A stretch of 38,702 nucleotides of DNA from an uncultured Mucilaginibacter sp. (lineage in GTDB: Bacteria > Bacteroidota > Bacteroidia > Sphingobacteriales > Sphingobacteriaceae). Shown one piece after another: positions 6,153-19,810 of the stretch (the first letter of the stretch is position 1; every line of letters starts with the position of its first letter). Location: contig NZ_CALMAT010000119.1 of NCBI RefSeq assembly GCF_937859865.1, forward strand, positions 1 through 38,702, in the 5' to 3' direction. The position numbers and the translations under genes are program-made. The notes under the pieces were generated by a model. The model did no database searches and was not told the DNA's origin. It saw only the letters and a list, made by a program, of their open reading frames with translations.

Positions 6153-7331
6153 ATGGACGCATATATAGTAGCGGCTTGCCGCAGTGCAGTTGGAAAAGCC
6201 ACACGCGGTGGTTTTAGATTTACACGGCCGGATAATTTAGCGGCAGATGTGATCCGGCAATTGGTTGCATCGGTGCCAAATGTGGACAAAGAGCAAATTG
6301 ATGACGTGATTGTAGGAAACGCCACGCCAGAAGCAGAACAAGGGTTAAACGTTGCCCGATTGATCTCGCTGATGGCACTGGATACGGACAAAGTTCCGGG
6401 GATGACGGTGAACCGTTATTGTGCTTCGGGTTTGGAAACTATTGCGATTGCTTCGGCAAAAATCCATAGCGGCATCAGTGATTGTATCATTGCCGGCGGC
6501 GTGGAAAGCATGAGTTTGTTGCCTTTTGGCGGCTGGCGAATTGTTCCGAACGTAGATGTTGCCCTGGCTCACCCCGATTATTATTGGGGAATGGGTTTAA
6601 CGGCAGAAGCGGTTGCAAAAGAATATAATATCAGCCGCGAGGAGCAGGACCAGTTTGCTTATAACTCGCACCAAAAAGCAATTAGTGCGATTGAGGCAGG
6701 CCGGTTTAAAGACCAGATTGTGCCGGTAAACGTAACCGAAACTTATGTTGACGAAGACGGAAAACGCAAAAAAAGGGAGTTTATAGTAGCGACCGATGAA
6801 GGCCCGCGGGCTGACACTTCCATTGAAGCTTTGTCCAAGTTGAAACCTGTTTTTGATGCCAAAGGATTGGTTACGGCGGGAAATTCTTCCCAAACCAGTG
6901 ATGGCGCGGCCTTTGTGATGGTGGTGAGCGAACGGTTTATGAAAGAAAACAACCTGGTGCCAATTGCCCGAATGGTGAATTATGCCGTTGCTGCCGTTCC
7001 GCCGCGCATTATGGGAATTGGTCCGCTGCTGGCGATACCAAAAGTTTTGAAAATGGCGGGAATGAAGCAGGACGATATGGATTTAATCGAGCTAAACGAA
7101 GCATTCGCCTCACAATCCTTAGCCATCATTAAAGGGTTGGATTTGAACCCGGAGATACTGAACGTAAACGGCGGTGCCATCGCTTTAGGTCATCCATTGG
7201 GTTGCAGCGGCGCAAAATTATCCGTCCAGATTTTTGACGAGTTGAAAAAACGCGATAAAAAATACGGCATGGTTACAATGTGCGTTGGCACCGGACAAGG
7301 CGCGGCAGGCATATTCGAGTTATTAAATTGA
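6153..7331 (+). CDS. fadA: Acetyl-CoA C-acyltransferase (3-ketoacyl-CoA thiolase)
   Basis: The 392-residue thiolase has the nucleophilic Cys90 in VNRYCASGLE, the GGAIALGHPLGCSG motif with His347, and the second catalytic Cys377 in MCVGTGQGAAG. It splits 3-ketoacyl-CoA with CoA in the last step of the beta-oxidation cycle. Length and motif order are normal. It stands between fadN and an acyl-CoA dehydrogenase, which favours a degradative role over a biosynthetic acetoacetyl-CoA thiolase, although motifs alone do not separate the two. Its upstream gap is filled by long hairpin element A. Confidence 0.92.
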   Translation: MDAYIVAACRSAVGKATRGGFRFTRPDNLAADVIRQLVASVPNVDKEQIDDVIVGNATPEAEQGLNVARLISLMALDTDKVPGMTVNRYCASGLETIAIASAKIHSGISDCIIAGGVESMSLLPFGGWRIVPNVDVALAHPDYYWGMGLTAEAVAKEYNISREEQDQFAYNSHQKAISAIEAGRFKDQIVPVNVTETYVDEDGKRKKREFIVATDEGPRADTSIEALSKLKPVFDAKGLVTAGNSSQTSDGAAFVMVVSERFMKENNLVPIARMVNYAVAAVPPRIMGIGPLLAIPKVLKMAGMKQDDMDLIELNEAFASQSLAIIKGLDLNPEILNVNGGAIALGHPLGCSGAKLSVQIFDELKKRDKKYGMVTMCVGTGQGAAGIFELLN

Positions 7332-7359
7332 ACACCAAAAAATAGTAGATAAAAACAGT

Positions 7360-9153
7360 ATGGACACAGCAACAGTAAAACAGCAACTCAAAGGCGGCGA
7401 GTTTTTAATTAAAGAAACGTTGGCAGAAGATATATTTATCCCCGAAAACTGGGACGAAGAACAATTGATGATCGCGCAAACCTGCCAGGAGTTTGTAGAC
7501 CAAAAAGTTGTTCCTATCATCGGTCGGATTGATGCGCAGGAAGAAGGTTTGATGGTAAACTTGATCGAGCAGGCCGGCGAACTGGGCATTCTGGGCGTTT
7601 CCATCCCCGAAGAATACGGCGGTTTTGGCAAAGATTTTACCACCGCTATGTTGGTGAGCGAGAAAACCGGCCCCGGCGCTTCTTTTTCTGTTGCGGTAAT
7701 GGCGCATACCGGCATTGGCACTTTGCCTATTTTGTATTATGGAAGCGAAGAACAAAAGACCAAATACATTCCCAAATTGGCTTCTGGCGAGTGGAAAGGC
7801 GCTTATTGCTTAACTGAACCAAGCGCAGGTTCTGATGCCAACTCGGGAAAAACCCGTGCAACGCTTTCTGCCGATGGCAAAAATTACATCATCAACGGAC
7901 AGAAAATGTGGATCACCAATGCCGGTTTTGCGGATGTTTTTACGGTTTTTGCCAAGATTGACGGCGACGAAAACCTAAGTGCGTTCATCATCGAAAAAGG
8001 TTATGAAGGAATTTCCCTCAACCCCGAAGAACATAAAATGGGTATTAAAGGAAGCTCTACCCGCCAGGTATTTTTTAACGATTGCAAAGTTCCGGTAGAA
8101 AACCTGTTGTCCGAAAGAGGAAATGGCTTTAAAATCGCGGTAAATATTTTAAACCTGGGCCGTATGAAATTGGGCGGTGCTGCTTTGGGCGCTTCAAAAC
8201 ATGTAATTACCAGTTCTATTCGCTACGCGAATGAGCGGGAGCAGTTTGGCCGTTCGATTGCAAAATACGGTGCCATCCGTTACAAGTTGGCCGAGCAGGT
8301 GATCCGTGCTTATGCTGCCGAAGCGGCTATGTATCGCGCCAGCCAAAACATTGAAGATGCCATCCACGGCATGATCGAAAACGGCATGGAACCATCCAAA
8401 GCCAAATTAAAAGGCACCGAACTTTTTGCGATAGAAGCGGCCATCATCAAAGTTCATGCTTCGGAAGCGTTGGATTATATTGTGGATGAAGGCGTGCAAA
8501 TTTATGGCGGCATGGGCTACAGTGCCGAAGCGCCGATGGACCGTGCTTATCGCGATAGTCGCATCAACCGCATTTTTGAAGGCACGAACGAGATCAATCG
8601 GATGTTAACAGTGGATATGATTTTGAAACGTGCCATGAAAGGCGAACTGGATTTGATGGGACCGGCACAAAAAGTAGCTTCCGAATTGATGAGCATCCCT
8701 GATTTTGGCGCTTCGGAAGATGATTTCTTCAGCAAAGAAAAAAAATACGTTGCCAATTTTAAGAAAGCAGTTTTGTTGGTTGCCGGTGCAGCGGTACAAA
8801 AACTGATGATGAACCTGGCCAAAGAACAGGAAGTTTTAATGAACCTGGCCGATATGCTGATCGAAACTTACGTGAGCGAATCGTTGCAATTGCGGGTTGA
8901 AAAATTAGCCGGTCAGCGCGGCGAAACAGCGATTGCAGAGCAGATTGATATGATGCAGGTTTACATCCGGGACGCCGCCGATAAGATTTTCAAATCAGGA
9001 AAAGAAGCTTTAAATGCTTTTGCCGAAGGCGATGAACGGCGCATGATGATGGTTGGTTTAAAACGCTACACCAAAACCGAAGACATCAACACAACGGCAG
9101 CGCGCCGACGCATTGCAGCAAAACTGATCGGCCAAAACAAATACTGTTTTTAG
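7360..9153 (+). CDS. fadE: Acyl-CoA dehydrogenase, long form (FadE of Bacillus type)
   Basis: The 597-residue flavoprotein makes the first oxidation of acyl-CoA and passes electrons to ETF. It shows the two ACAD signatures: CLTEPSAGSDANSG near residue 150 and the C-terminal QIYGGMGYSAE segment. IFEGTNEINR supplies the probable catalytic base Glu407. An extra C-terminal region of about 180 residues after the core matches the long ACAD type (Bacillus FadE, about 594 residues; VLCAD-like) rather than the 380-residue short/medium-chain enzymes. It starts 28 bases behind fadA and ends 40 bases before the acyl-CoA synthetase, so co-transcription is likely. Confidence 0.92.
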   Translation: MDTATVKQQLKGGEFLIKETLAEDIFIPENWDEEQLMIAQTCQEFVDQKVVPIIGRIDAQEEGLMVNLIEQAGELGILGVSIPEEYGGFGKDFTTAMLVSEKTGPGASFSVAVMAHTGIGTLPILYYGSEEQKTKYIPKLASGEWKGAYCLTEPSAGSDANSGKTRATLSADGKNYIINGQKMWITNAGFADVFTVFAKIDGDENLSAFIIEKGYEGISLNPEEHKMGIKGSSTRQVFFNDCKVPVENLLSERGNGFKIAVNILNLGRMKLGGAALGASKHVITSSIRYANEREQFGRSIAKYGAIRYKLAEQVIRAYAAEAAMYRASQNIEDAIHGMIENGMEPSKAKLKGTELFAIEAAIIKVHASEALDYIVDEGVQIYGGMGYSAEAPMDRAYRDSRINRIFEGTNEINRMLTVDMILKRAMKGELDLMGPAQKVASELMSIPDFGASEDDFFSKEKKYVANFKKAVLLVAGAAVQKLMMNLAKEQEVLMNLADMLIETYVSESLQLRVEKLAGQRGETAIAEQIDMMQVYIRDAADKIFKSGKEALNAFAEGDERRMMMVGLKRYTKTEDINTTAARRRIAAKLIGQNKYCF

Positions 9154-9193: not shown

Positions 9194-11005
9194 ATGAAAA
9201 AGGCAGCACGGTTATTTGATTGTTTAGAAGCACAACAGCAGGAGCCAAAACCTGATTTTTTGAACGCCAAAATCAACGGCGAATGGAAATCGTACAGCAC
9301 GGCCGAGGCGCATGAGAAAATCTATCAGTTGGCCGCTGCTTTGCTTGAAATGGGGATTTCACCGGGCGATGGTAGTGTTGAAGGACGAAACAAAGTTGGC
9401 CTTATCAGCAACAGCAGGCCCGAATGGCTGATAACAGATTTGGCCGTGCAACTGGTTGGCGGGATTTTAGTGCCGCTTTATCCAAACACCAGCACAAAAG
9501 AAATGGAACAGATTTTGGCAGAAGCCGAAGTTGCCTGCATTTTTGTAAGCGATGCCGAACTTTGCGCCAAAGTAACAGCAGTTCAAAAAAACGTGCCGAC
9601 GTTAAAAACCATCGTTTCGTTTGATAAAATTACGGATTGCGTTCACTTTGAAAGTTTGCTGAAACCAACCAGCGAAGTTGACAAAAAGCGGATTTCGGCC
9701 ATCAGCAACCGCATTACCGAAAACGATGTAACCACTATCATTTTCACTTCGGGCACAACCGGACGGCCAAAAGGCGTGATGTTGACGCACAAAAATATTG
9801 TAAGCAATGTGGTTGGTTCTGGCAAAGTATTGTTGCAGATTCCGGTCGTCAATAAACGTGCGCTCAGCTTTCTACCGCTCAACCATATCTTCGAAAAAAT
9901 GGTTACCTACATCTACCTTTTTTATGGGTTTTCGATTTACTACGCCGAAAATATGGATACGATTGGCGCGAACATGCGCGAAGTAAAACCCAATTTGTTT
10001 ACGGCCGTTCCAAGACTTTTAGAAAAAGTGTTTGAAAAAATCGTGATCGAAGGACAGAAACTTTCGGGCATTAAAAAGAGTATTTTCTTGTGGTCAATTA
10101 AAGTGGCAGAACAATTTGAAAATACCGGCACCAGCTTGTGGTACAAAGTGAAATTGGCCATTGCCAACAAATTGGTTTACAGCAAATGGCGGGCTGCTTT
10201 GGGCGGCGAAGTAAAAGCCATTATTTTGGGCAGTTCTGCTTGCCCGGTACGCCTTGAAAAAATATTTACCGCCGCCAAGATTGTGATTTTAGAAGGTTAT
10301 GGGTTGACGGAAACTTCTCCGGTAATTACCGTAAACCAATATCAAATAAACGGCAGAAGGTTTGGAACGGTTGGGCTTTTGCTGGAAGATGTGCAGGTAA
10401 AAATAGCAGCCGACGGTGAAATTTTGTGCAAAGGCCCGAACATTATGTTGGGTTATTACAAAAACCCGGAGCTGACGGCAGAAGTTTTGGCGGACGGCTG
10501 GTTCCATACCGGTGATATCGGACAGATTGACCAGGATAATTTCTTGAAAATAACCGACCGGAAAAAAGAGATTTTTAAAACCTCCGGCGGGAAATATGTT
10601 GCACCCGTGCCGATTGAAAACCGGATGAAAGAAAGCCCTTTGATCGAGCAAATGATGGTAATTGGTGCCGAAAGAAAGTTTACTTCGGCTTTGATCGTTC
10701 CATCTTATCCAAACCTGAAATTATGGTGCGAGCAGCAAAACTTTAATTTTAATTCGGCTCAGCAAATTGTTGAACAGGAGCAAGTTATTGCTTTGTACCA
10801 ATCGGTTGTTGATTCTTTTAATTCGGAATTTAACCATGTGGAACAGGTAAAAAAATTCAAACTACTTTCGGAAGAATGGACGATCAACGGCGGGGAATTA
10901 ACGCCCACCGGAAAAATGAAACGCCGCATCATCATGGAAAAATACAAACAGGAGATCGAGCATTTGTATCAAACCGAAACCGACAAAACGCTGGTTGCAC
11001 ATTAA
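9194..11005 (+). CDS. Long-chain acyl-CoA synthetase (AMP-forming)
   Basis: The 603-residue adenylate-forming enzyme activates fatty acids to acyl-CoA via acyl-AMP. Motifs in order: the P-loop-like TSGTTGRPKGVML from residue 185, the linker EGYGLTETSPV, GWFHTGDIG and the hinge ITDRKKEIFKTSGGKYVAP. Length and the KYVAP..IE region match the COG1022 (FAA1/Bubblegum-like) branch more than E. coli FadD. It starts 40 bases behind fadE. The gap after it carries a hairpin repeat, which could separate it from the isomerase gene at mRNA level (inference). Confidence 0.92.
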   Translation: MKKAARLFDCLEAQQQEPKPDFLNAKINGEWKSYSTAEAHEKIYQLAAALLEMGISPGDGSVEGRNKVGLISNSRPEWLITDLAVQLVGGILVPLYPNTSTKEMEQILAEAEVACIFVSDAELCAKVTAVQKNVPTLKTIVSFDKITDCVHFESLLKPTSEVDKKRISAISNRITENDVTTIIFTSGTTGRPKGVMLTHKNIVSNVVGSGKVLLQIPVVNKRALSFLPLNHIFEKMVTYIYLFYGFSIYYAENMDTIGANMREVKPNLFTAVPRLLEKVFEKIVIEGQKLSGIKKSIFLWSIKVAEQFENTGTSLWYKVKLAIANKLVYSKWRAALGGEVKAIILGSSACPVRLEKIFTAAKIVILEGYGLTETSPVITVNQYQINGRRFGTVGLLLEDVQVKIAADGEILCKGPNIMLGYYKNPELTAEVLADGWFHTGDIGQIDQDNFLKITDRKKEIFKTSGGKYVAPVPIENRMKESPLIEQMMVIGAERKFTSALIVPSYPNLKLWCEQQNFNFNSAQQIVEQEQVIALYQSVVDSFNSEFNHVEQVKKFKLLSEEWTINGGELTPTGKMKRRIIMEKYKQEIEHLYQTETDKTLVAH

Positions 11006-11030
11006 TCAAAGTTTCTTATAATCATGTCAA

Positions 11031-11075
11031 ATACTTCTTTTATCACCCTAAAATTATTGGCATAAAAGAAGCATC
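11031..11075. repeat. Paired hairpin repeat, shortest form
   Basis: ATACTTCTTTTAT at the left faces ATAAAAGAAGCAT at the right with about 19 bases between them. One A-type and one G-type arm are combined, giving one mismatch in the stem. It lies between the acyl-CoA synthetase and the isomerase genes. Confidence 0.75.
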
Positions 11076-11108
11076 GTTAATTCGTCTTTTTGCTGATCAA
11101 TCATTGCC

Positions 11109-11879
11109 ATGAAAACTTTAGAAATCAATATTGAAAACAAACTGGCTGTAATTACGCTAAACCGCGGACGTTCCAATCCCATCAATTTGGAAATGATTTC
11201 GGAACTGATCTCCGCAGTAAAAGAACTTGAAGCGGACGAAGAAGTTAATGGCTTGATCATCACCGGAAAAGAAGGGTTTTTCTCGGCAGGAATTGACCTG
11301 ATCGAAGTTTACCATTACAACGAGCAGCAAAGCCAGGATTTCTGGACAAATTTCCTGTTGATGCAAAGCACTTTAGTCAGTTTTAAAAAGCCTTTTGTGG
11401 CTGCAATTTCCGGCCATAGTCCCGCTGGCGGCTGTATTATTGCGCTCTGTGCCGATTATCGCGTAATGGCAAAAGGCAATTTTATCATCGGCTTGAATGA
11501 AATTCCGGTTGGGATTATTGTTCCGGATACTGTTTTTAGCCTATATTCTTTTTGGTTGGGAAAACGTAAAGCGTACCAGTATTTGCTGGAAGGAAAATTG
11601 TTAAAAGTTGATGAAGCTTTGCAATTCGGTTTGGTGGATGAAGTAGTTGAACCAGAAGAAGTTCTGAAAGTTGCAGAGAAAAAGATCAGGATTTATATGA
11701 AGATGAACGCAGAAACCTGGCAGCAAAGCAAATTAAATTTAAGAAAAGAACTGATTAGCCAAATGCAAACGGATCAAAGCGAGACTTTGAACAAAATGCT
11801 GGAACAATGGTGGTTGCCCGAAACACGCTTATCTTTGCAAAAAGTAATTGGCCAGCTTACCAAAACTGTAAAAAACTAA
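11109..11879 (+). CDS. Delta3,delta2-enoyl-CoA isomerase (ECI1-like crotonase)
   Basis: This 256-residue crotonase-fold protein moves a double bond from position 3 to position 2 so that unsaturated acyl chains can enter the hydratase step. The motifs are those of mitochondrial ECI1 rather than a hydratase: FFSAGIDL (59-64 region), SGHSPAGGCIIAL (101-113) and IGLNEIPVGI (127-136). Glu131 is the single catalytic acid; the first hydratase Glu position is occupied by the PAGGC stretch. The stop is followed after one base by the dienoyl-CoA reductase start, so the two auxiliary enzymes are translationally linked. An ordinary enoyl-CoA hydratase is the alternative but fits less well. Confidence 0.8.
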   Translation: MKTLEINIENKLAVITLNRGRSNPINLEMISELISAVKELEADEEVNGLIITGKEGFFSAGIDLIEVYHYNEQQSQDFWTNFLLMQSTLVSFKKPFVAAISGHSPAGGCIIALCADYRVMAKGNFIIGLNEIPVGIIVPDTVFSLYSFWLGKRKAYQYLLEGKLLKVDEALQFGLVDEVVEPEEVLKVAEKKIRIYMKMNAETWQQSKLNLRKELISQMQTDQSETLNKMLEQWWLPETRLSLQKVIGQLTKTVKN

Positions 11880-11880
11880 A

Positions 11881-12786
11881 ATGGAAATTCCTGAAAATAA
11901 CAGTTTGGGCGACGCCGAAAAAGGAATGCTGCGAAACGATGCTTTCAACGGAAAAACAATCATCATAACCGGCGGCGGAACGGGACTGGGCAGAGCAATG
12001 GGAACATACTTTTTAAAGCTTGGTGCCAATTTAGTCATCACGAGTAGGAAGTTAAAGGTTCTGCAAAAAACCGCCACTGAAATGGAAACCGAAACCGGAG
12101 GCAAAATTTTAGCTTTGGCTTGCGATGTGCGTCATTATGAGGAAGTTGAAAAAGTTTTTCAGGAAGCGGTTGCCAAATTTGGGCAGGTAAACGCAGTAGT
12201 GAACAACGCTGCCGGGAATTTTATTTCGCCTACAGAACGGCTTTCGGCCAATGCTTTTTCTACCATCATTGATATTGTGTTGAAAGGTTCGGTCAATTGT
12301 TCTTTGGCTGCCGGAAAATATTGGATCAAGGAAAAAATGCCGGGCAATATTTTGAATATCATTACCACTTATGCTTTTACTGGTTCGGCTTACGTCGTTC
12401 CTTCGGCTTGTGCCAAAGGCGGCGTACTGGCCCTAACGCGATCTTTGGCGGCAGAATGGGGCCGGCATCAAATCCGAACCAACGCCATTGCGCCCGGCCC
12501 TTTTCCAACCAAAGGCGCGTGGGAAAGATTACTGCCCGGGGAAATGGCTGAAAAATTTGATTTTAAAAACCGCGTCCCTTTAAAACGAGTTGGCAAACAA
12601 CAGGAAATTGCCAATTTGGCTGCCTTTTTAATTTCCGATTATTCGGCTTACATCAATGGCGATGTGATTACGATTGATGGCGGCGAGTGGCTGCAAGGCG
12701 CCGGGCAATTTAACGGACTGGAAATGGTTACCGATGAAATGTGGGACGGCATTGAACAATTAATACGCGCCGCAAAAGGTAGCTAA
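11881..12786 (+). CDS. 2,4-dienoyl-CoA reductase, SDR type (DECR1-like)
   Basis: This 301-residue short-chain dehydrogenase carries the NADPH loop GGGTGLG at residues 31-37 and NNAAGNFISPTERLS near 108-122, a signature nearly identical to human mitochondrial DECR1. The active pair is Tyr164 in TTYAFTG and Lys179 in ACAKGGV, with the 15-residue spacing of DECR1 instead of the usual SDR YxxxK. It reduces 2,4-dienoyl-CoA produced from polyunsaturated or even-position double bonds to a 3-enoyl-CoA, the substrate of the isomerase encoded just upstream. The bacterial FadH flavoenzyme type is unrelated. Confidence 0.85.
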   Translation: MEIPENNSLGDAEKGMLRNDAFNGKTIIITGGGTGLGRAMGTYFLKLGANLVITSRKLKVLQKTATEMETETGGKILALACDVRHYEEVEKVFQEAVAKFGQVNAVVNNAAGNFISPTERLSANAFSTIIDIVLKGSVNCSLAAGKYWIKEKMPGNILNIITTYAFTGSAYVVPSACAKGGVLALTRSLAAEWGRHQIRTNAIAPGPFPTKGAWERLLPGEMAEKFDFKNRVPLKRVGKQQEIANLAAFLISDYSAYINGDVITIDGGEWLQGAGQFNGLEMVTDEMWDGIEQLIRAAKGS

Positions 12787-12810
12787 TAAATTATATTTTT
12801 GTTGATTAAC

Positions 12811-12942
12811 ACCAATGCTTCTTTTACCCTATAAATTTTGGTGCCTGTTTAATTTTCATAAACTGAAAATGAATGTTTACCAATTTTTGGGTGATAAAAG
12901 AAGCATTGAAACTTTTATAAAAAAATTTAAACAGGCTCTAAA
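12811..12942 (+). repeat. Long hairpin element, copy B (left end lost)
   Basis: The core arms ATGCTTCTTTTACCCTATAA and GGTGATAAAAGAAGCAT face each other with the inner TTGGTG / ACCAA pair. The right terminal repeat AAATTTAAACAGGCTCTAA is kept, but the matching left terminal repeat is absent. It lies between the dienoyl-CoA reductase and the membrane Fe-S protein genes. Confidence 0.8.
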
Positions 12943-12950
12943 TAAATTCC

Positions 12951-14249
12951 ATGATTGCACAACTCGTCTTTCTAATCATATTGGCTGCCGCGGTATTTTT
13001 ATTTAGCAAAAACACCGGCAAAATCCGGCGTAATATTTTGCTGGGAAAAGATGCCGACCGGAGTGACCAGCCCGCGCTTCGCTGGAAAACCATGGCAAAA
13101 GTAGCCTTAGGCCAAAGTAAAATGGGCAAACGGCCGGTAGCAGCAATCATGCACTTGTTTATTTATGTCGGTTTTGTCATCATCAACATCGAAGTTTTGG
13201 AGATTACGATTGATGGGCTTTTTGGTTCGCACCGTGTTTTTTCCCGTCCGTTGGGTAGTTTATACGGCTTGCTGATTGGCGGCTTTGAAATCCTGGCGTT
13301 GCTGGTTTTGGTTTCCTGCGTGGTGTTTTTATCTCGAAGGAACCTGCTAAAACTGAAACGTTTTCAAGGCCCGGAGATGAAAGAATGGCCGCGTTCAGAT
13401 GCCAATTATATTCTTTTCATCGAAATATTATTGATGACCGCTTTTCTCACCATGAACGCGGCAGATTACAAATTGCAAGCCTTGCATTTTGGGCATTATA
13501 TTAAAGCCGGCAGTTTTCCGGTCAGTGCTTTGATTGCCCCGCTCCTGCCTTCCAACGCCAGTTCATTAGTGATGATCGAACGCGGCTGCTGGTGGTTCCA
13601 CATCATTGGCATTTTGGCTTTTTTAAATTACCTTCCCTACTCCAAGCATTTCCACATTTTGCTGGCTTTCCCAAATACGTATTATTCCAAGCTTTCACCC
13701 AAAGGCCAGTTCAGCAATATGGCTTCGGTTACCAATGAAGTAAAGGCAATGGTTGACCCTTCTTTCGTTCCTGCCGCTACCGAACCCGGCCGTTTTGGTG
13801 CCAAAGATGCAACCGACCTCACCTGGAAAAACCTGATGGACGCTTACACTTGCACCGAATGCGGGCGTTGCACGAGCGTTTGCCCGGCCAATAATACCGG
13901 AAAATTACTTTCGCCACGTAAAATTATGATGGACACGCGCGACCGGATTACCGAAATCGGGAACAATTTGGATAAACAGGGAAAAGACTTCCAGGACAAT
14001 AAAACCTTGCTGGACGATTACATTTCGCGCGAAGAATTGTGGGCCTGCACCACTTGCAACGCCTGTACCGAAGCTTGTCCGGTAAACATTGACCCGTTAA
14101 ATATCATTACCGAAATGCGAAGGTTTATTGTGATGGAAGAATCGCAGGCACCGCCAAGTTTAAACAACATGTTTAGCAATGTGGAAAACAACGGCGCACC
14201 TTGGAAATATTCAAACGCCGACAGGATGAATTGGGCAGAAAGTGATTAG
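12951..14249 (+). CDS. Membrane (Fe-S) protein, N-terminal half of a split ETF:menaquinone oxidoreductase (EtfD/EMO-like)
   Basis: The 432-residue protein starts with a membrane domain of about five hydrophobic segments within residues 1-240 (NarI/HdrE-like, with histidines suited to haem). Two [4Fe-4S] motifs follow: Cys301, 304, 307 and 311 (CTECGRCTSVCP) and Cys366, 369, 372 and 376 (CTTCNACTEACP). The next gene encodes the CCG domains that follow such a region in single-chain EtfD / EMO proteins. The pair could thus move electrons from ETF to menaquinone. No FixC-type ETF-QO is present in the window, and etfBA lie in the same + strand cluster. A heterodisulfide-reductase-like partner for another donor is the alternative. 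Confidence 0.8.
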   Translation: MIAQLVFLIILAAAVFLFSKNTGKIRRNILLGKDADRSDQPALRWKTMAKVALGQSKMGKRPVAAIMHLFIYVGFVIINIEVLEITIDGLFGSHRVFSRPLGSLYGLLIGGFEILALLVLVSCVVFLSRRNLLKLKRFQGPEMKEWPRSDANYILFIEILLMTAFLTMNAADYKLQALHFGHYIKAGSFPVSALIAPLLPSNASSLVMIERGCWWFHIIGILAFLNYLPYSKHFHILLAFPNTYYSKLSPKGQFSNMASVTNEVKAMVDPSFVPAATEPGRFGAKDATDLTWKNLMDAYTCTECGRCTSVCPANNTGKLLSPRKIMMDTRDRITEIGNNLDKQGKDFQDNKTLLDDYISREELWACTTCNACTEACPVNIDPLNIITEMRRFIVMEESQAPPSLNNMFSNVENNGAPWKYSNADRMNWAESD

Positions 14250-14374
14250 CGGATGGTTCATAGATCATAGTAAAAACCTGCAAAGTCTCCAACTACGCTC
14301 CTCCCATGAACTATTGACCATCAACTATCAACACTTCCCATGAACCATTAACTATCACCCATCAACTAACAACC
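14250..14374 (+). repeat. Degenerate tandem CCATGAAC / CATCAACTAT repeat
   Basis: CCCATGAAC occurs at 14303, 14337 and, as CCATGAAC, at 14373, separated by degenerate units of ACTATCAAC / CATCAACTA. The last copy contains the start codon (14375) of the next gene. No promoter or Shine-Dalgarno sequence is recognisable here. Confidence 0.65.
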
Positions 14375-15166
14375 ATGAACGAACTACATATCCCAACCAT
14401 GGCGCAAATGGCAGCCGAAGGCAAAGCGCCCGAAATTTTATTTTGGGTGGGTTGCGCCGGAAGTTTTGACGAACGTGCCCAAAAAATCACGAGAAGCATT
14501 TGCAAAATTTTACAACATGTTGGCCTAAGTTATGCCGTTTTGGGAACTGAAGAAAGCTGCACCGGCGATCCGGCAAAACGTGCGGGAAATGAGTTTTTGT
14601 TTCAAATGCAGGCGTTGACGAATATTGAAGTTTTAAATGCATATGCAGTCAAAAAGATTGTAACTGGTTGTCCGCATTGTTTCAATACGTTGAAAAACGA
14701 GTATCCGCAACTGGGCGGAAATTATGAAGTGATCCATCATACCGAATTGATCCAACAGTTAATTGACGAAGGAAAATTAAAAACGGAGGACAATGAAAGT
14801 TTCAAGGGCAAACGTATCACCTACCACGATGCTTGCTACTTAGGCCGCGGCAACAACGTTTACGAAGCGCCACGAAACGCTTTGCAGGTTTTGGATGCCG
14901 AACTGGTAGAAATGAAACGTTGCCGAAGCAACGGTTTGTGTTGTGGTGCAGGCGGCGCGCAAATGTTTAAAGAAGCCGAACCCGGAAAAAAAGAAATCAA
15001 CATCGAACGGATTGAAGATGCGATTGAAGCCAAAGCACAAATTGTAGCTTCGGCCTGCCCTTTCTGCATGACCATGCTGCGCGACGGCGTAAAAATCAAA
15101 GAAAAAGAACAAGAAATTCAGGTTTTGGATATTGCCGAAATTACGGCGCGGGCAAATGGGTTATAA
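14375..15166 (+). CDS. CCG-domain (Fe-S) protein, C-terminal half of a split ETF:menaquinone oxidoreductase
   Basis: The 263-residue soluble protein has two CCG (DUF224 / HdrB-like) modules. The first runs from FWVGCAGSFDERAQ to TGCPHCF and has a single Cys in ESCTGDP. The second has HDACYLGRGN, LCCGAGGAQMF and SACPFCMTM, the full C...CC...CxxC pattern for a cysteine-ligated cluster. In HdrD/EtfD-type proteins these modules follow a membrane and ferredoxin region in one chain; here that region is the preceding gene. The first module's loss of the CC pair suggests that only the second binds a complete cluster. It ends the + strand lipid cluster. Confidence 0.8.
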   Translation: MNELHIPTMAQMAAEGKAPEILFWVGCAGSFDERAQKITRSICKILQHVGLSYAVLGTEESCTGDPAKRAGNEFLFQMQALTNIEVLNAYAVKKIVTGCPHCFNTLKNEYPQLGGNYEVIHHTELIQQLIDEGKLKTEDNESFKGKRITYHDACYLGRGNNVYEAPRNALQVLDAELVEMKRCRSNGLCCGAGGAQMFKEAEPGKKEINIERIEDAIEAKAQIVASACPFCMTMLRDGVKIKEKEQEIQVLDIAEITARANGL

Positions 15167-15354: not shown

Positions 15355-16164
15355 TTACTTCATCTGTTCCTTAATAAAAGCAATTGCCTTTGCATACGTA
15401 TCCAAAATATCATTGCCGCGCCAACCGTGGCCTTTTCCGGGGTATGTAACATAACTCGACGGAACATTGGCCTGTTTCAGCTTCACATTCAAACTATCGC
15501 TTTCTCGGATCGGTACAATCGGATCGGCCGTGCCATGAAAAATAATTGTAGCAGGGCTTTTCTTGCTGACGTGGTCAACCGCGCTGGCATCGGCATAAAC
15601 ATTCGGGATGGCCGTAGGAACACCGTTCATCAACCCGGCCAGTTCGTGGTGCGCTCGGTAAAGGTCAACCATATCGGCAGGGCCAAACAAATCAACCACT
15701 ACTTTTACTTCGTGTTTCGGGTCGTGGATAAATCCTTCTACCAAAGCCAATTGCGCGCCTGCACTTTCGCCCAGCAAAATCAATTGCTTTTTATCAATGT
15801 GGTAATCTTTCGCTTTGTCTTTGATAAAAGCAACCGCTTTGTCAACATCGTCAATTTGCGCCGGCCACGGATTGCTCAAGGTTTGCCGGTTGGCCAAACG
15901 GTAATTTAGGTTGAAAATAGCATAATCCGGAAAGGCTTTTTGCAAAGGTTTCAGCCAATGCGCCATGTTGATTTTATCGCCTGCAACCCAGCTTCCGCCG
16001 TGGATCAAAATGATGGCAGGCATTTTGCCCTTGCTTTCTTTGGGCAGGTAAACGTCCATTTTTTGCTGGGCATCATCGCCATAAGCTACATCTTTATTAA
16101 CGGTTTGTGCCGAGGCCATTTGCCAGCCAATCATCAAACTTAATATGGAAATTATTTTTTTCAT
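15355..16164 (-). CDS. Secreted alpha/beta hydrolase (esterase/lipase-like)
   Basis: The 269-residue protein has a signal peptide cleaved after ASAQ near residue 20. The alpha/beta-hydrolase core shows the oxyanion motif HGGSW (55-59), the nucleophile Ser134 in GESAGAQ, and probable acid Asp214 in HGTADPIVP with His246 in GKGHGW. This is the BD-FAE / acetyl-esterase-like pattern, so it probably cleaves small esters or acyl groups of polysaccharides outside the cytoplasm; substrate unknown. A repeat arm lies 20 bases upstream of the start. It is convergent with the beta-oxidation cluster and is probably a separate unit. Confidence 0.85.
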   Translation of the reverse strand: MKKIISILSLMIGWQMASAQTVNKDVAYGDDAQQKMDVYLPKESKGKMPAIILIHGGSWVAGDKINMAHWLKPLQKAFPDYAIFNLNYRLANRQTLSNPWPAQIDDVDKAVAFIKDKAKDYHIDKKQLILLGESAGAQLALVEGFIHDPKHEVKVVVDLFGPADMVDLYRAHHELAGLMNGVPTAIPNVYADASAVDHVSKKSPATIIFHGTADPIVPIRESDSLNVKLKQANVPSSYVTYPGKGHGWRGNDILDTYAKAIAFIKEQMK

Positions 16165-16387: not shown

Positions 16388-18577
16388 ATGCTTACACAAA
16401 GACCATTAGAAATTTGGGGCGGAATTGAGGGGACTATCAACCGCGTTGGAGATAATTACATTGACCAGTCGGAGTTTTCCGGCCATTACAACCGCGAAAC
16501 GGATATAGATTTAATCGCTTCTTTGGGCATCAAAATGTTGCGCTACCCGGTTTTGTGGGAAAAACATCAGCCCAAAAAAGACACTGAAATTGATTGGAGC
16601 TTTACCGAACGCAACTTACTTCGGCTAAAAAAACTGAATGTAGAACCAATTGCCGGTTTGGTGCACCATGGCAGCGGGCCAACTTTTGTCAATTTTTTTG
16701 ACGGCAGTTTTGAACAAGGCGTTGCCGATTATGCCAAACTTGTTGCCAAAAAATTTCCCTGGCTCGAATATTATACGCCGGTAAACGAACCGCTTACAAC
16801 AGCACGTTTTTGCGGTTTGTACGGCCATTGGTATCCGCACAAAAAAGATGCATACTCTTTTTACCGGGTACTTTTGAGCGAATGCAAAGCGACTATCATG
16901 GCGATGGAGGCCATTCGGGAAGTCAACCCAAATGCAAAACTGATTCAGACGGAAGATTTAGGCAAAGTTTACAGCACACCGCTGTTGAAGTATCAGGCCG
17001 ATTTTGAAAACGAACGCCGCTGGCTTTCTTACGATTTGATCACCGGAACGCTAACGCCAGACAAAACGATGTACAAATTCCTGACCGGGATGGGTTTTAA
17101 AAACCAAGAGCTGGATTACTTTTTAGAGAATCACTGCAAACCGGACATCGTCGGCTTTAATTACTACATCACTTCCGAACGTTACCTGGACGAAAACCTG
17201 CAAAAGTATCCACAGCACGTTCATGGCGGCAACGGACGCCATCAATATGCTGATGTTGAGGTTGTCCGAGTTCCTTACCAACAAAAAACAGGGCCATCGG
17301 TATTGCTAAAAGAAGCGTGGGAAAGGTATAAATTACCGCTTGCCATTACCGAGTGCCATTTGCATTGCACGCGCGAAGAACAAATGCGTTGGTTCCATGA
17401 AATGTGGGAAACGGCAAACCAGTTGCAAGCCAATGGCGTGGACATCCGTGCTTTAACGGCCTGGGCCATTTTAGGCACTTATGGTTGGAACAAGTTGGTA
17501 ACCAAACCCTGGGGATTGTACGAGCCGGGCGTTTTTAACCTTCGTTCTGGTAAACCGCGGCCTACGGCAATGGTTAAACTGATCCGTGAACTATCAAAAA
17601 ATAAAGTTTATCAGCAACCGGTTTTAAAAACTTTTGGCTGGTGGAAACAGGAAAAAAGGATCGCTTATCCGGATGCCAACGTTTTCAGGATCAATAATTT
17701 AAAACCTGTATCGCATAGTCAACCTGTTTTAGTTTTAGGCAAATTTGCTTCAATAGAAACTGCATATGAAAAGATTTGCGCGGACAGAAGTATCCATTGC
17801 GTGGTTCATAACCAAATTGGTTTGGTTAATCAAGTTGAATTTGAAAAACTGATCCGGGATATCAATCCTTGGGCAATTATTAACCTACAGGAATATGCGG
17901 ATTTGGAGCTGGCAGAACAAAACCCGGAAAACTGCTTCAAAATAAATACGGACACAGCTTTGCTTTTGGCCGAAGCTTGTAAAAAGAACGCCATTAAACT
18001 CGTTACTTTTTCTTCTGCATCTGTTTTTAATGGAGAAAAAGAAGAAGCATATTTAGAAACAGATGCCGTTTCACCAAGAAATATTTTCGGCCAAAGCAAA
18101 GTAAAGACAGAAGAAATGTTGCTGCAACACTTCCCCGAAACCTTGATTGTTCGCGTTGGAAAATTGTTCAGTCCTTGGGAAAGCAGCGGTTTTATTTCGA
18201 AAATTTTAAACCGGATCAAGGAAGGAAGGACGGTTGAAGCAGCAAACGACAATTTAATTTCGCTGACCTACGTACCGGATTTGGTGCACGAAACTTTAAA
18301 CATTTTACTGGACGACGAATGTGGTATTGTCCATGCAGCCAACCAGGGGCAAACAACAGATGCCAACTTAGCCCGAAAAGCAGCACAATTTGCCCGATTG
18401 AATGACAGTTTGGTAAAAGGCGTACCGGCAGCAAAATTACAGCAAAAGATACCCGCACCACAAAACGCTACGCTGCAAAGTGAAAAAGGTGTTTTGTTGC
18501 CCGAGTTTGAAAGTGCCTTAAAACACTATTTGGAAATTACGGATCAGGTATTTTTAGCAGACAAAATAGCGGTGTAA
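16388..18577 (+). CDS. GH1 family glycosidase fused to an RmlD-like sugar-nucleotide SDR domain
   Basis: The 729-residue protein has two parts. Residues 1-430 resemble family 1 glycosidases: PVNEP with the acid/base Glu134 and ITECH with the probable nucleophile Glu322, in the usual order. Residues 440-715 resemble dTDP-4-dehydrorhamnose reductase (RmlD-like SDR), with FSSASVFNG at 541-549 and PRNIFGQSK at 563-571. In the SDR part the Gly-rich NAD loop is missing (LVLGKFASIE) and the catalytic Tyr is Phe567, though Lys571 is kept. So the glycosidase may be active while the second domain probably only binds a sugar or nucleotide sugar (inference). No signal peptide is visible, so a cytoplasmic role is likely. 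Confidence 0.8.
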   Translation: MLTQRPLEIWGGIEGTINRVGDNYIDQSEFSGHYNRETDIDLIASLGIKMLRYPVLWEKHQPKKDTEIDWSFTERNLLRLKKLNVEPIAGLVHHGSGPTFVNFFDGSFEQGVADYAKLVAKKFPWLEYYTPVNEPLTTARFCGLYGHWYPHKKDAYSFYRVLLSECKATIMAMEAIREVNPNAKLIQTEDLGKVYSTPLLKYQADFENERRWLSYDLITGTLTPDKTMYKFLTGMGFKNQELDYFLENHCKPDIVGFNYYITSERYLDENLQKYPQHVHGGNGRHQYADVEVVRVPYQQKTGPSVLLKEAWERYKLPLAITECHLHCTREEQMRWFHEMWETANQLQANGVDIRALTAWAILGTYGWNKLVTKPWGLYEPGVFNLRSGKPRPTAMVKLIRELSKNKVYQQPVLKTFGWWKQEKRIAYPDANVFRINNLKPVSHSQPVLVLGKFASIETAYEKICADRSIHCVVHNQIGLVNQVEFEKLIRDINPWAIINLQEYADLELAEQNPENCFKINTDTALLLAEACKKNAIKLVTFSSASVFNGEKEEAYLETDAVSPRNIFGQSKVKTEEMLLQHFPETLIVRVGKLFSPWESSGFISKILNRIKEGRTVEAANDNLISLTYVPDLVHETLNILLDDECGIVHAANQGQTTDANLARKAAQFARLNDSLVKGVPAAKLQQKIPAPQNATLQSEKGVLLPEFESALKHYLEITDQVFLADKIAV

Positions 18578-18658: not shown

Positions 18659-19810
18659 TTATCTGCTCAGTTCTTTAATCCGGCTGCGTGTAAAATCTAC
18701 ATAAACCTGCTCTTTGACCGGCGGTTTTGCCTTGAGATATTTCTTATAAAATTTTACAGCATTGGCTTTATCGTGCAGCCCTTTGTCATACAATCCGGCT
18801 AAATTATAATACGTAATGGCTTTTTCTTTAAAAAACAAACCTTTTTGGTAAGCTACAGCTTCATTTTTAAACTGTTTGTTTAAGTCGTAGGTGTCGGCCA
18901 TTTCATCATAATATACATCTGTGTTTGGCGAAATGGCTTGCATCAACGTTTTGTCGTAATATTCTACCGCCTGTTTGTACCGCTTTAAAGCCTTAAAACT
19001 TCTGGCCGATAAATAACAAATCCTTTCTGTCTGGGCATCCACAGGCATTGCCAAAAAAGTTTCTAAAGCACAAGTGTGGTTTTTTGTCATAAAATATGAG
19101 GTGCCAAGCATGTTTTGCACTTCCAAAGAAGCGTTGCCCAATTCTACCAGCTTTAAACAAGTACCAATAGTTTCTTTAAACCGATTGTTGATGTAAGTTA
19201 GTTTTGCCAACGAACGCAACAAAAGCAAATTGGTAGAATCGGCCAGTAAAGCAATTTTCAAAATTGGTTCGGCTTGTTTAAACCTTTTCATATTCATCAG
19301 CAGCAAACTTAAATCTGCGGCTACATCTGGCTCTTGCGGATTAATTTTATTAGCCGTTTGCCAGCTTGAAATCGCTTTTTCAGTTTCACCTTTATCCGAA
19401 TACAAGTTGCCTAACTGCTTATAAACCGAAAAGTTGGTTTTATCCAACGCAATCACTTTTTCAAAATAAAACAAAGCTTTCGTGTTATTTTCCCGCCTGA
19501 TCTGGATATTGGCCAAATTTAACAAAACAGGAATACTGGCAGAATCTTGCTGGTAAATACGCAAATAGTAGCTCTCGGCATCCAACAGTTTCCCGGCCAT
19601 TTGATTGGCATAAGCAAAACGGCCAAGTACTTTTAAATTGGTAACCGGTTCGGGATAATTTTTTTTCAGGTAATTAACCGCTTCTGTGTAACGCTGGTTT
19701 TGGTACAAATCAATCAAAACAGCATCGTTTGGCGTGTTTGTTTGCGCTTTTATTTCATTTTTGAAAATCAAAAACGCAGCAGTTATCAACAAAAAAGTAT
19801 AGGTTTTCAT
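18659..19810 (-). CDS. Secreted tetratricopeptide-repeat protein
   Basis: The 383-residue protein begins with a signal peptide (MKTYTFLLITAAFLIF, cleavage after EIKAQ near residue 23). The rest is built from TPR units of about 34 residues, e.g. around AKLLDAESYYLRIYQQD, NTKALFYFEKVIALDKTN and TEKAISSWQTANKINPQE. TPR proteins bind partner proteins; the partner is unknown. It is expected in the periplasm. It is preceded by a good candidate promoter and is separated from the upstream metallo-beta-lactamase gene by a hairpin repeat, so it is probably its own unit. Confidence 0.8.
   Translation of the reverse strand: MKTYTFLLITAAFLIFKNEIKAQTNTPNDAVLIDLYQNQRYTEAVNYLKKNYPEPVTNLKVLGRFAYANQMAGKLLDAESYYLRIYQQDSASIPVLLNLANIQIRRENNTKALFYFEKVIALDKTNFSVYKQLGNLYSDKGETEKAISSWQTANKINPQEPDVAADLSLLLMNMKRFKQAEPILKIALLADSTNLLLLRSLAKLTYINNRFKETIGTCLKLVELGNASLEVQNMLGTSYFMTKNHTCALETFLAMPVDAQTERICYLSARSFKALKRYKQAVEYYDKTLMQAISPNTDVYYDEMADTYDLNKQFKNEAVAYQKGLFFKEKAITYYNLAGLYDKGLHDKANAVKFYKKYLKAKPPVKEQVYVDFTRSRIKELSR

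Follow-up and report, generated by a model that had tools for sequence, protein, structure and literature searches.

Family 1 glycosidases (GH1) typically carry their nucleophile in a TENG motif, and MAT2B is the non-catalytic regulatory subunit of human methionine adenosyltransferase 2. Our search found no literature joining MAT2B with dTDP-4-dehydrorhamnose reductase, and full-text literature searches, covering listings and abstract openings, found no published description of a fusion between a GH1 domain and an RmlD-like reductase of the SDR type. The closest annotated proteins are three fusions labeled "family 1 glycosylhydrolase" (WP_013334485.1 from Gloeothece, WP_013921762.1 from Runella, and WP_051307551.1 from Deinococcus ficus), for which no experimental work was found in the literature searched. 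They share the architecture of the protein described here over nearly its whole length, at 44 to 48% identity, but differ from it in having an SDR half with the GxxGxxG loop, the catalytic Tyr, and the Lys.

The stretch of DNA analyzed here (the window, 38,702 nucleotides) encodes such a fusion with altered reductase motifs (Table 1). We consider it fairly likely, with a probability of about 0.6, that the window protein is a working glycosidase with a dead but still folded reductase half kept by weak purifying selection, in a fusion family in which this loss has occurred repeatedly.

Domain assignment and altered motifs of the window protein

The gene encodes a single chain of 729 residues, which confirms the coordinates and the residue number 567 given in the original prediction, and both of the GH1 catalytic Glu residues named there are in place (NE134P and TE322). 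By score (PF00232 over residues 32 to 378, 53.2 bits against a curated cut-off of 22.6), catalytic residues, and predicted TIM-barrel fold, the first half is a member of GH1 and would be expected to have retaining glycosidase activity. It falls far below the NCBIfam equivalog for the beta-glucosidase BGL (TIGR03356; 51.9 versus 478.5 bits). The second half matches PF04321 over residues 447 to 716 (150.4 bits against a cut-off of 27) and has the RmlD fold in the model, but the GxxGxxG motif (here GKFASIE) and the Tyr of YxxxK (here Phe567) are missing, and its score is below the NCBIfam rmlD equivalog cut-off (139.8 versus 224.05 bits). Three intact fusions that we tested also score just below that cut-off (205.4, 210.3, and 216.4 bits), so the intact fusions are best called RmlD-like.

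Table 1. Positions in the window of the fusion gene and of its halves, motifs, and key residues
Feature	Positions	Strand	Basis or remark
Whole gene, GH1-RmlD fusion	16388..18577	+	729 aa, single ORF
GH1 half, residues 1-428	16388..17671	+	Pfam PF00232; residues 1-409 superimpose on GH1 structures, Z 35.7
Glu134, acid/base of NEP motif	16787..16789	+	Alignment; kept in 66/66 members
Glu322, nucleophile (ITECH)	17351..17353	+	Alignment; kept in 66/66 members
Flexible linker, residues 433-440	17684..17707	+	pLDDT < 50
RmlD-like SDR half, residues 446-716	17723..18535	+	Pfam PF04321; aligns to RmlD 1vl0, residues 444-720, Z 35.5
Former GxxGxxG loop, residues 451-457, now GKFASIE	17738..17758	+	Alignment, conserved columns
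SSD motif, residues 542-544, now SSA	18011..18019	+	Alignment, conserved columns
Phe567 replacing catalytic Tyr	18086..18088	+	Alignment; codon TTC
Lys571 of YxxxK, kept	18098..18100	+	Alignment

Modeled with AlphaFold2 (mean pLDDT 90.5, pTM 0.90), the window protein shows a folded SDR half behind the short flexible linker. Its GH1 half superimposes on GH1 glucosidases over 380 residues (rmsd 3.0) and its SDR half on RmlD 1vl0 over 274 residues (rmsd 1.7); MAT2B ranks third when the model is searched with Foldseek and is also matched by sequence. The model is no proof that the SDR half folds, because the alignment behind it was full of intact relatives.

The loss of the Gly-rich loop that had been predicted is real for two of its three glycines, the second having become Ala and the third Glu, but Gly451 is retained. 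The Asp of the SSD motif has become Ala544, with Ser542/543 retained, and Phe567 is indeed found where the relatives have Tyr. Other changes at conserved SDR positions are P626L, A688I, R690A, and F593L. Since the altered motif columns are at least 90% conserved among 36 intact relatives, the altered motif is not a matter of chance. The window protein keeps 117 of the 119 conserved columns of the GH1 half and 49 of the 68 of the SDR half.

These replacements suggest that reductase activity has been lost. It is very unlikely that the SDR half remains active as an oxidoreductase by dispensing with the Tyr and using Ser542/543 and Lys571: these residues and 49 of the 68 conserved columns persist, but the GxxGxxG loop, the SSD Asp, and the Tyr have gone together, and the half evolves fast. 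That the odd motif reflects a sequencing or assembly error is hardly credible. The genome is a draft of 177 contigs, but the substitutions are many and separate, the reading frame is clean, and both relatives from the same genus carry changes at some of the columns altered in the window (G502, D544, and D638).

The fusion is predicted to be cytoplasmic, solely from the lack of an evident N-terminal hydrophobic stretch. It stands alone as a gene, since the flanking genes, an esterase-like ORF on the 5' side (15355-16164) and a TPR protein on the 3' side (18659-19810), both lie on the minus strand. Elsewhere in the window, positions 9194-15163 hold a run of plus-strand genes resembling an acyl-CoA ligase, a crotonase, and a 2,4-dienoyl-CoA reductase, after which come two for Fe-S proteins resembling electron carriers of the HdrC/HdrB type.

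Distribution of the fusion and recurrent loss of reductase motifs

The GH1-RmlD fusion is a widespread family, found in Bacteroidota, cyanobacteria, Deinococcus, and proteobacteria. A search of 100 genomes of relatives gave 17 near-full-length matches in 16 genomes, the window's own included; one genome (G047) has two, the match in another (G041) is limited to residues 7 to 655, and those in G001 and G002 span residues 1 to 729. Sampling 395 genomes of the phylum added two genomes with the fusion, as well as a GH1-only copy in G337, and in an order-level sample 25 of 300 genomes, again including the window's own, match with an E value of 1e-60 or lower. At least 80% of the fusion is present in 19 plasmid records, from Gloeothece, Runella, Deinococcus, Microvirga, Caballeronia, Azospirillum, Sphingobium, and others, and most of their SDR halves read GKTGTLG, SSDLVFDG, and YGxSK or close to it. 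The fusion in G001, from the window's genus and 70% identical to the window protein, has GKSGMLG and YGQSK intact.

For comparison across the family we assembled 57 rows, to which nine from the genus of G569 were added to give 66 members; rates were compared on 49 full-length rows. Sixteen of the 40 listed plasmid matches were considered for the set, the Azospirillum record (L048) contributing two rows, and a scan of genome contigs for the fusion gave 5 loci. Left out were L050, in which the gene is split in two, L055, a single-domain GH1 gene, and L056 to L058, which duplicate L076 to L078; the single-domain GH1 paralogues L002/L079, L021, and L059 are outside the member count. The split copy lies at positions 7097-9138 of L050, on a Sphingomonas daechungensis plasmid, as two annotated ORFs. 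L079, from the window's genome, carries its separate single-domain GH1 gene at 6615-7811, with the acid/base motif NEI instead of NEP; it is preceded by a classical SDR gene and by ORFs resembling, by eye, glucose-6-phosphate dehydrogenase and 6-phosphogluconolactonase.

Both GH1 catalytic Glu residues are kept in all 66 aligned members. The SDR Tyr and Lys are kept in 49 of them (38 with GxxGxxG, 7 with GxxGxxA, and 4 with the loop lost), and the SDR half is eroded in the other 17, of which 9 are without the Tyr or the Lys and 8 are shortened; one of the shortened members, L075 (628 aa), has lost the Tyr region by an internal deletion. We took Tyr and Lys as the main count; loss of GxxGxxG alone is too strict a criterion because the GxxGxxA of 7 of the 66 rows may be functional. 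On the tree of the GH1 half, loss of the Tyr or Lys or of the half itself requires at least 11 changes across the 66 members (12 under a stricter definition, on 57 rows). These counts do not support the view that the fusion is generally built with a dead SDR half, both residues being retained in 49 of the 66 members. Homologues with intact motifs, which the original prediction had named as evidence against its reading, do exist and are the majority, and in this respect they largely tell against it; its corollary that the window protein would then be a simple mutant does not hold, given 17 eroded members and at least 11 changes.

The window's genus is represented in the set by three genomes with three different loss patterns, and one of the three, L060, keeps GxxGxxG, Tyr, and Lys. 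That these three members differ at conserved SDR columns, together with the at least 11 changes in the family, rules out an accident of a single strain. We also looked for a separate SDR gene that might stand behind the shortened copies, but in the two cases inspected by eye, neither the 118-aa ORF that follows the Ensifer copy nor the sequence following L096 contains an SDR motif.

Phe567 arose four times in full-length members on the GH1 tree: in the window protein, in L084/L085/L109, in L077, and in L047. The Tyr has been substituted in five lineages, and the chance of four or more of five going to Phe is about 0.003 (calculated by hand on a small number of events, taking the probability that a single-base replacement in a Tyr codon yields Phe as one in six). 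Phe is the mildest replacement of Tyr for the fold.

Constraint on SDR halves without the catalytic Tyr

With the GH1 tree fixed, the terminal branch leading to the window protein is 0.091 long for the GH1 half and 0.592 for the SDR half, and this ratio of 6.52 is the highest of the 49 tips. The median ratio is 1.19 for the 35 intact rows and 1.68 for the 12 eroded rows (one-sided rank test, P = 0.006), a test weakened by shared ancestry and by the definition of "eroded" on SDR columns. Between the window gene and L060, dN/dS is 0.074 for the GH1 half (dS 1.71) and 0.213 for the SDR half (dS 1.69), and across the three genus members the SDR values range from 0.19 to 0.23; all of these values are rough because dS is near saturation. 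Simulated neutral drift at 0.3 changes per site produced a mean of 8.8 stop codons, and none of 2,000 runs was free of stops; the window gene has none. Constraint on the window's SDR half is therefore relaxed about threefold but not abandoned, dN/dS being higher than in the GH1 half at equal dS.

These numbers bear on the possibility that the SDR half is a degenerating passenger sequence heading for deletion, as has happened in the shortened relatives (8 of 66, among them L075 with its missing Tyr region). Such neutral decay would fit the three differing loss patterns in the window's genus but is unlikely, given a dN/dS of 0.19 to 0.23 among those members and zero stops or frameshifts where neutral drift would leave about 9 or more stops.

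The proposal that one half is a pseudoenzyme fares well in part. The half looks catalytically dead, yet purifying selection still maintains it in frame (no stops; dN/dS of 0.21 in the comparison with L060), and in a separate clade the Phe567 half is nearly unchanged. This clade comprises L084, L085, and L109, three species of one genus in the window's family, all with Phe567 and no Gly-rich loop. They retain 57 to 58 of the 68 conserved SDR columns, and SDR dN/dS is 0.013 and 0.016 in two pairs (dS is saturated in the third), with 0.033 to 0.042 for GH1. The Tyr-less SDR half is thus under strong constraint there, and plain dispensability of the half gives no explanation for it. These proteins are the best support in our data for a non-catalytic role, yet they lie outside the window's lineage; a mechanism of reduction without Tyr is also possible in them. 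Their SDR half is a candidate conserved pseudoenzyme, better suited to experiments than the window protein.

It had further been proposed that the half senses a nucleotide sugar and so controls the glycosidase. A true regulatory pseudoenzyme of this kind, one that binds a nucleotide sugar or NAD(H) but does not turn it over, would be consistent with the four independent Tyr-to-Phe changes in full-length members, which are more conservative than random loss, with the retention of Phe567 throughout the three-species L084 clade at SDR dN/dS of 0.013 to 0.016 (two measurable pairs), and with the existence of an RmlD-fold non-catalytic regulator in MAT2B. For the window protein, the additional changes at conserved SDR positions listed above, the altered cofactor loop, and an SDR half evolving 6.5 times faster than GH1 speak against sensing. 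We saw no sign of a ligand or of regulation, and most members of the family keep the catalytic residues. We therefore regard this regulatory role as improbable, and from its sequence the window's SDR half looks like one under relaxed constraint rather than a tuned sensor.

A related and tentative suggestion, doubtful but perhaps somewhat easier to entertain, is that on more than one occasion the RmlD half ceased to be an enzyme and became an integral, non-catalytic partner of the GH1 half. It draws on the four lineages in which Tyr became Phe and on the three-species clade with its almost unchanged dead half; if it is right, the half must do something there besides ordinary reduction, for example hold or gate the GH1 active site.

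Gene neighborhood, proposed role, and comparison with known systems

At least 45 of 57 members have a glycosyltransferase gene of the Ensifer-related kind close to the fusion gene, and at least 19 of 57 have one for UDP-galactopyranose mutase (Glf); both counts are lower bounds, with only about 1.5 kb upstream covered for 17 loci. The two are fused in one gene beside the fusion in Gloeothece and Sphingobium (L040, 4488-6914; L049, 4427-6673; L051, 4441-6684). Loss of the SDR half shows no association with loss of the neighboring glycosyltransferase or Glf gene (Fisher P = 1.0 and P = 0.77). No glycosyltransferase gene neighbors the fusion within the window; the nearest of the cassette type in that genome is on another contig (G000:C118), and its GLF match is on contig C64. 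In the window's six-member clade (support 100/100), only L080 has an adjacent glycosyltransferase gene, which is divergently oriented. The orphan cassette-type glycosyltransferase of the window's genome (L103, 8268-9509) lies about 1.1 kb upstream of an ORF on the same strand that by eye resembles pyruvate oxidase.

In five alphaproteobacterial loci (L049, L048, L052, L053, and L044), sites of the EcfG type matching the loose pattern GGAAC-N-GTT occur upstream of the cluster; a stricter pattern occurs 17 times in the 253,334 bases of both strands of the alphaproteobacterial loci. The Sphingomonas melonis Fr1 EcfG regulon table lists adjacent transcripts 1750, "Glycosyltransferase," and 1751, "Glycosidases" (PMC6599016), and these may represent the same cassette as the fusion locus. 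The cassette terms were not found in a paper on the general stress response (PMC7083833). The family points to an uncharacterized cassette of glycosyltransferase, UDP-galactopyranose mutase, and GH1-RmlD fusion; in alphaproteobacteria this cassette may form part of the general stress response.

Returning to the reading that we favor, the GH1 half would be the indispensable part of the fusion, most likely a retaining beta-glycosidase or transglycosidase acting on a glycoconjugate made by the cassette. In most members the residues of the RmlD half are those expected in an active NAD(P)H-dependent nucleotide-sugar reductase, and the half presumably works as one. In the window's genus this function has apparently been given up, the window protein being without the cofactor loop, the SSD Asp, and the catalytic Tyr. 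The remaining half, in frame and with a predicted fold, would most simply pack against the glycosidase and stabilize it, and such a structural role is, we infer, the simplest explanation for its persistence. Beside an unchanged glycosidase half, the family has reductase halves that look alive, look dead, are shortened, or are missing altogether. With this natural series one can test whether an enzyme half that has been lost turns into a structural or a regulatory part.

Compared with known systems, the window protein shares its barrel fold (Z 35.7 over 380 residues) and both catalytic Glu residues with the GH1 beta-glucosidase of Thermotoga maritima (2j7h and 1od0), but is only 19% identical to it, has ITECH as its nucleophile motif, and carries the extra C-terminal SDR half. 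That half shares the fold of RmlD (1vl0, 3sc6, and 1kbz; Z 35.5 and rmsd 1.7 to 1vl0 for residues 444 to 720); unlike RmlD, it sits behind a glycosidase, has lost the cofactor loop and the Tyr, and scores below the rmlD cut-off. MAT2B likewise has the RmlD fold but is a separate subunit of an unrelated enzyme, with no fusion to a glycosidase.
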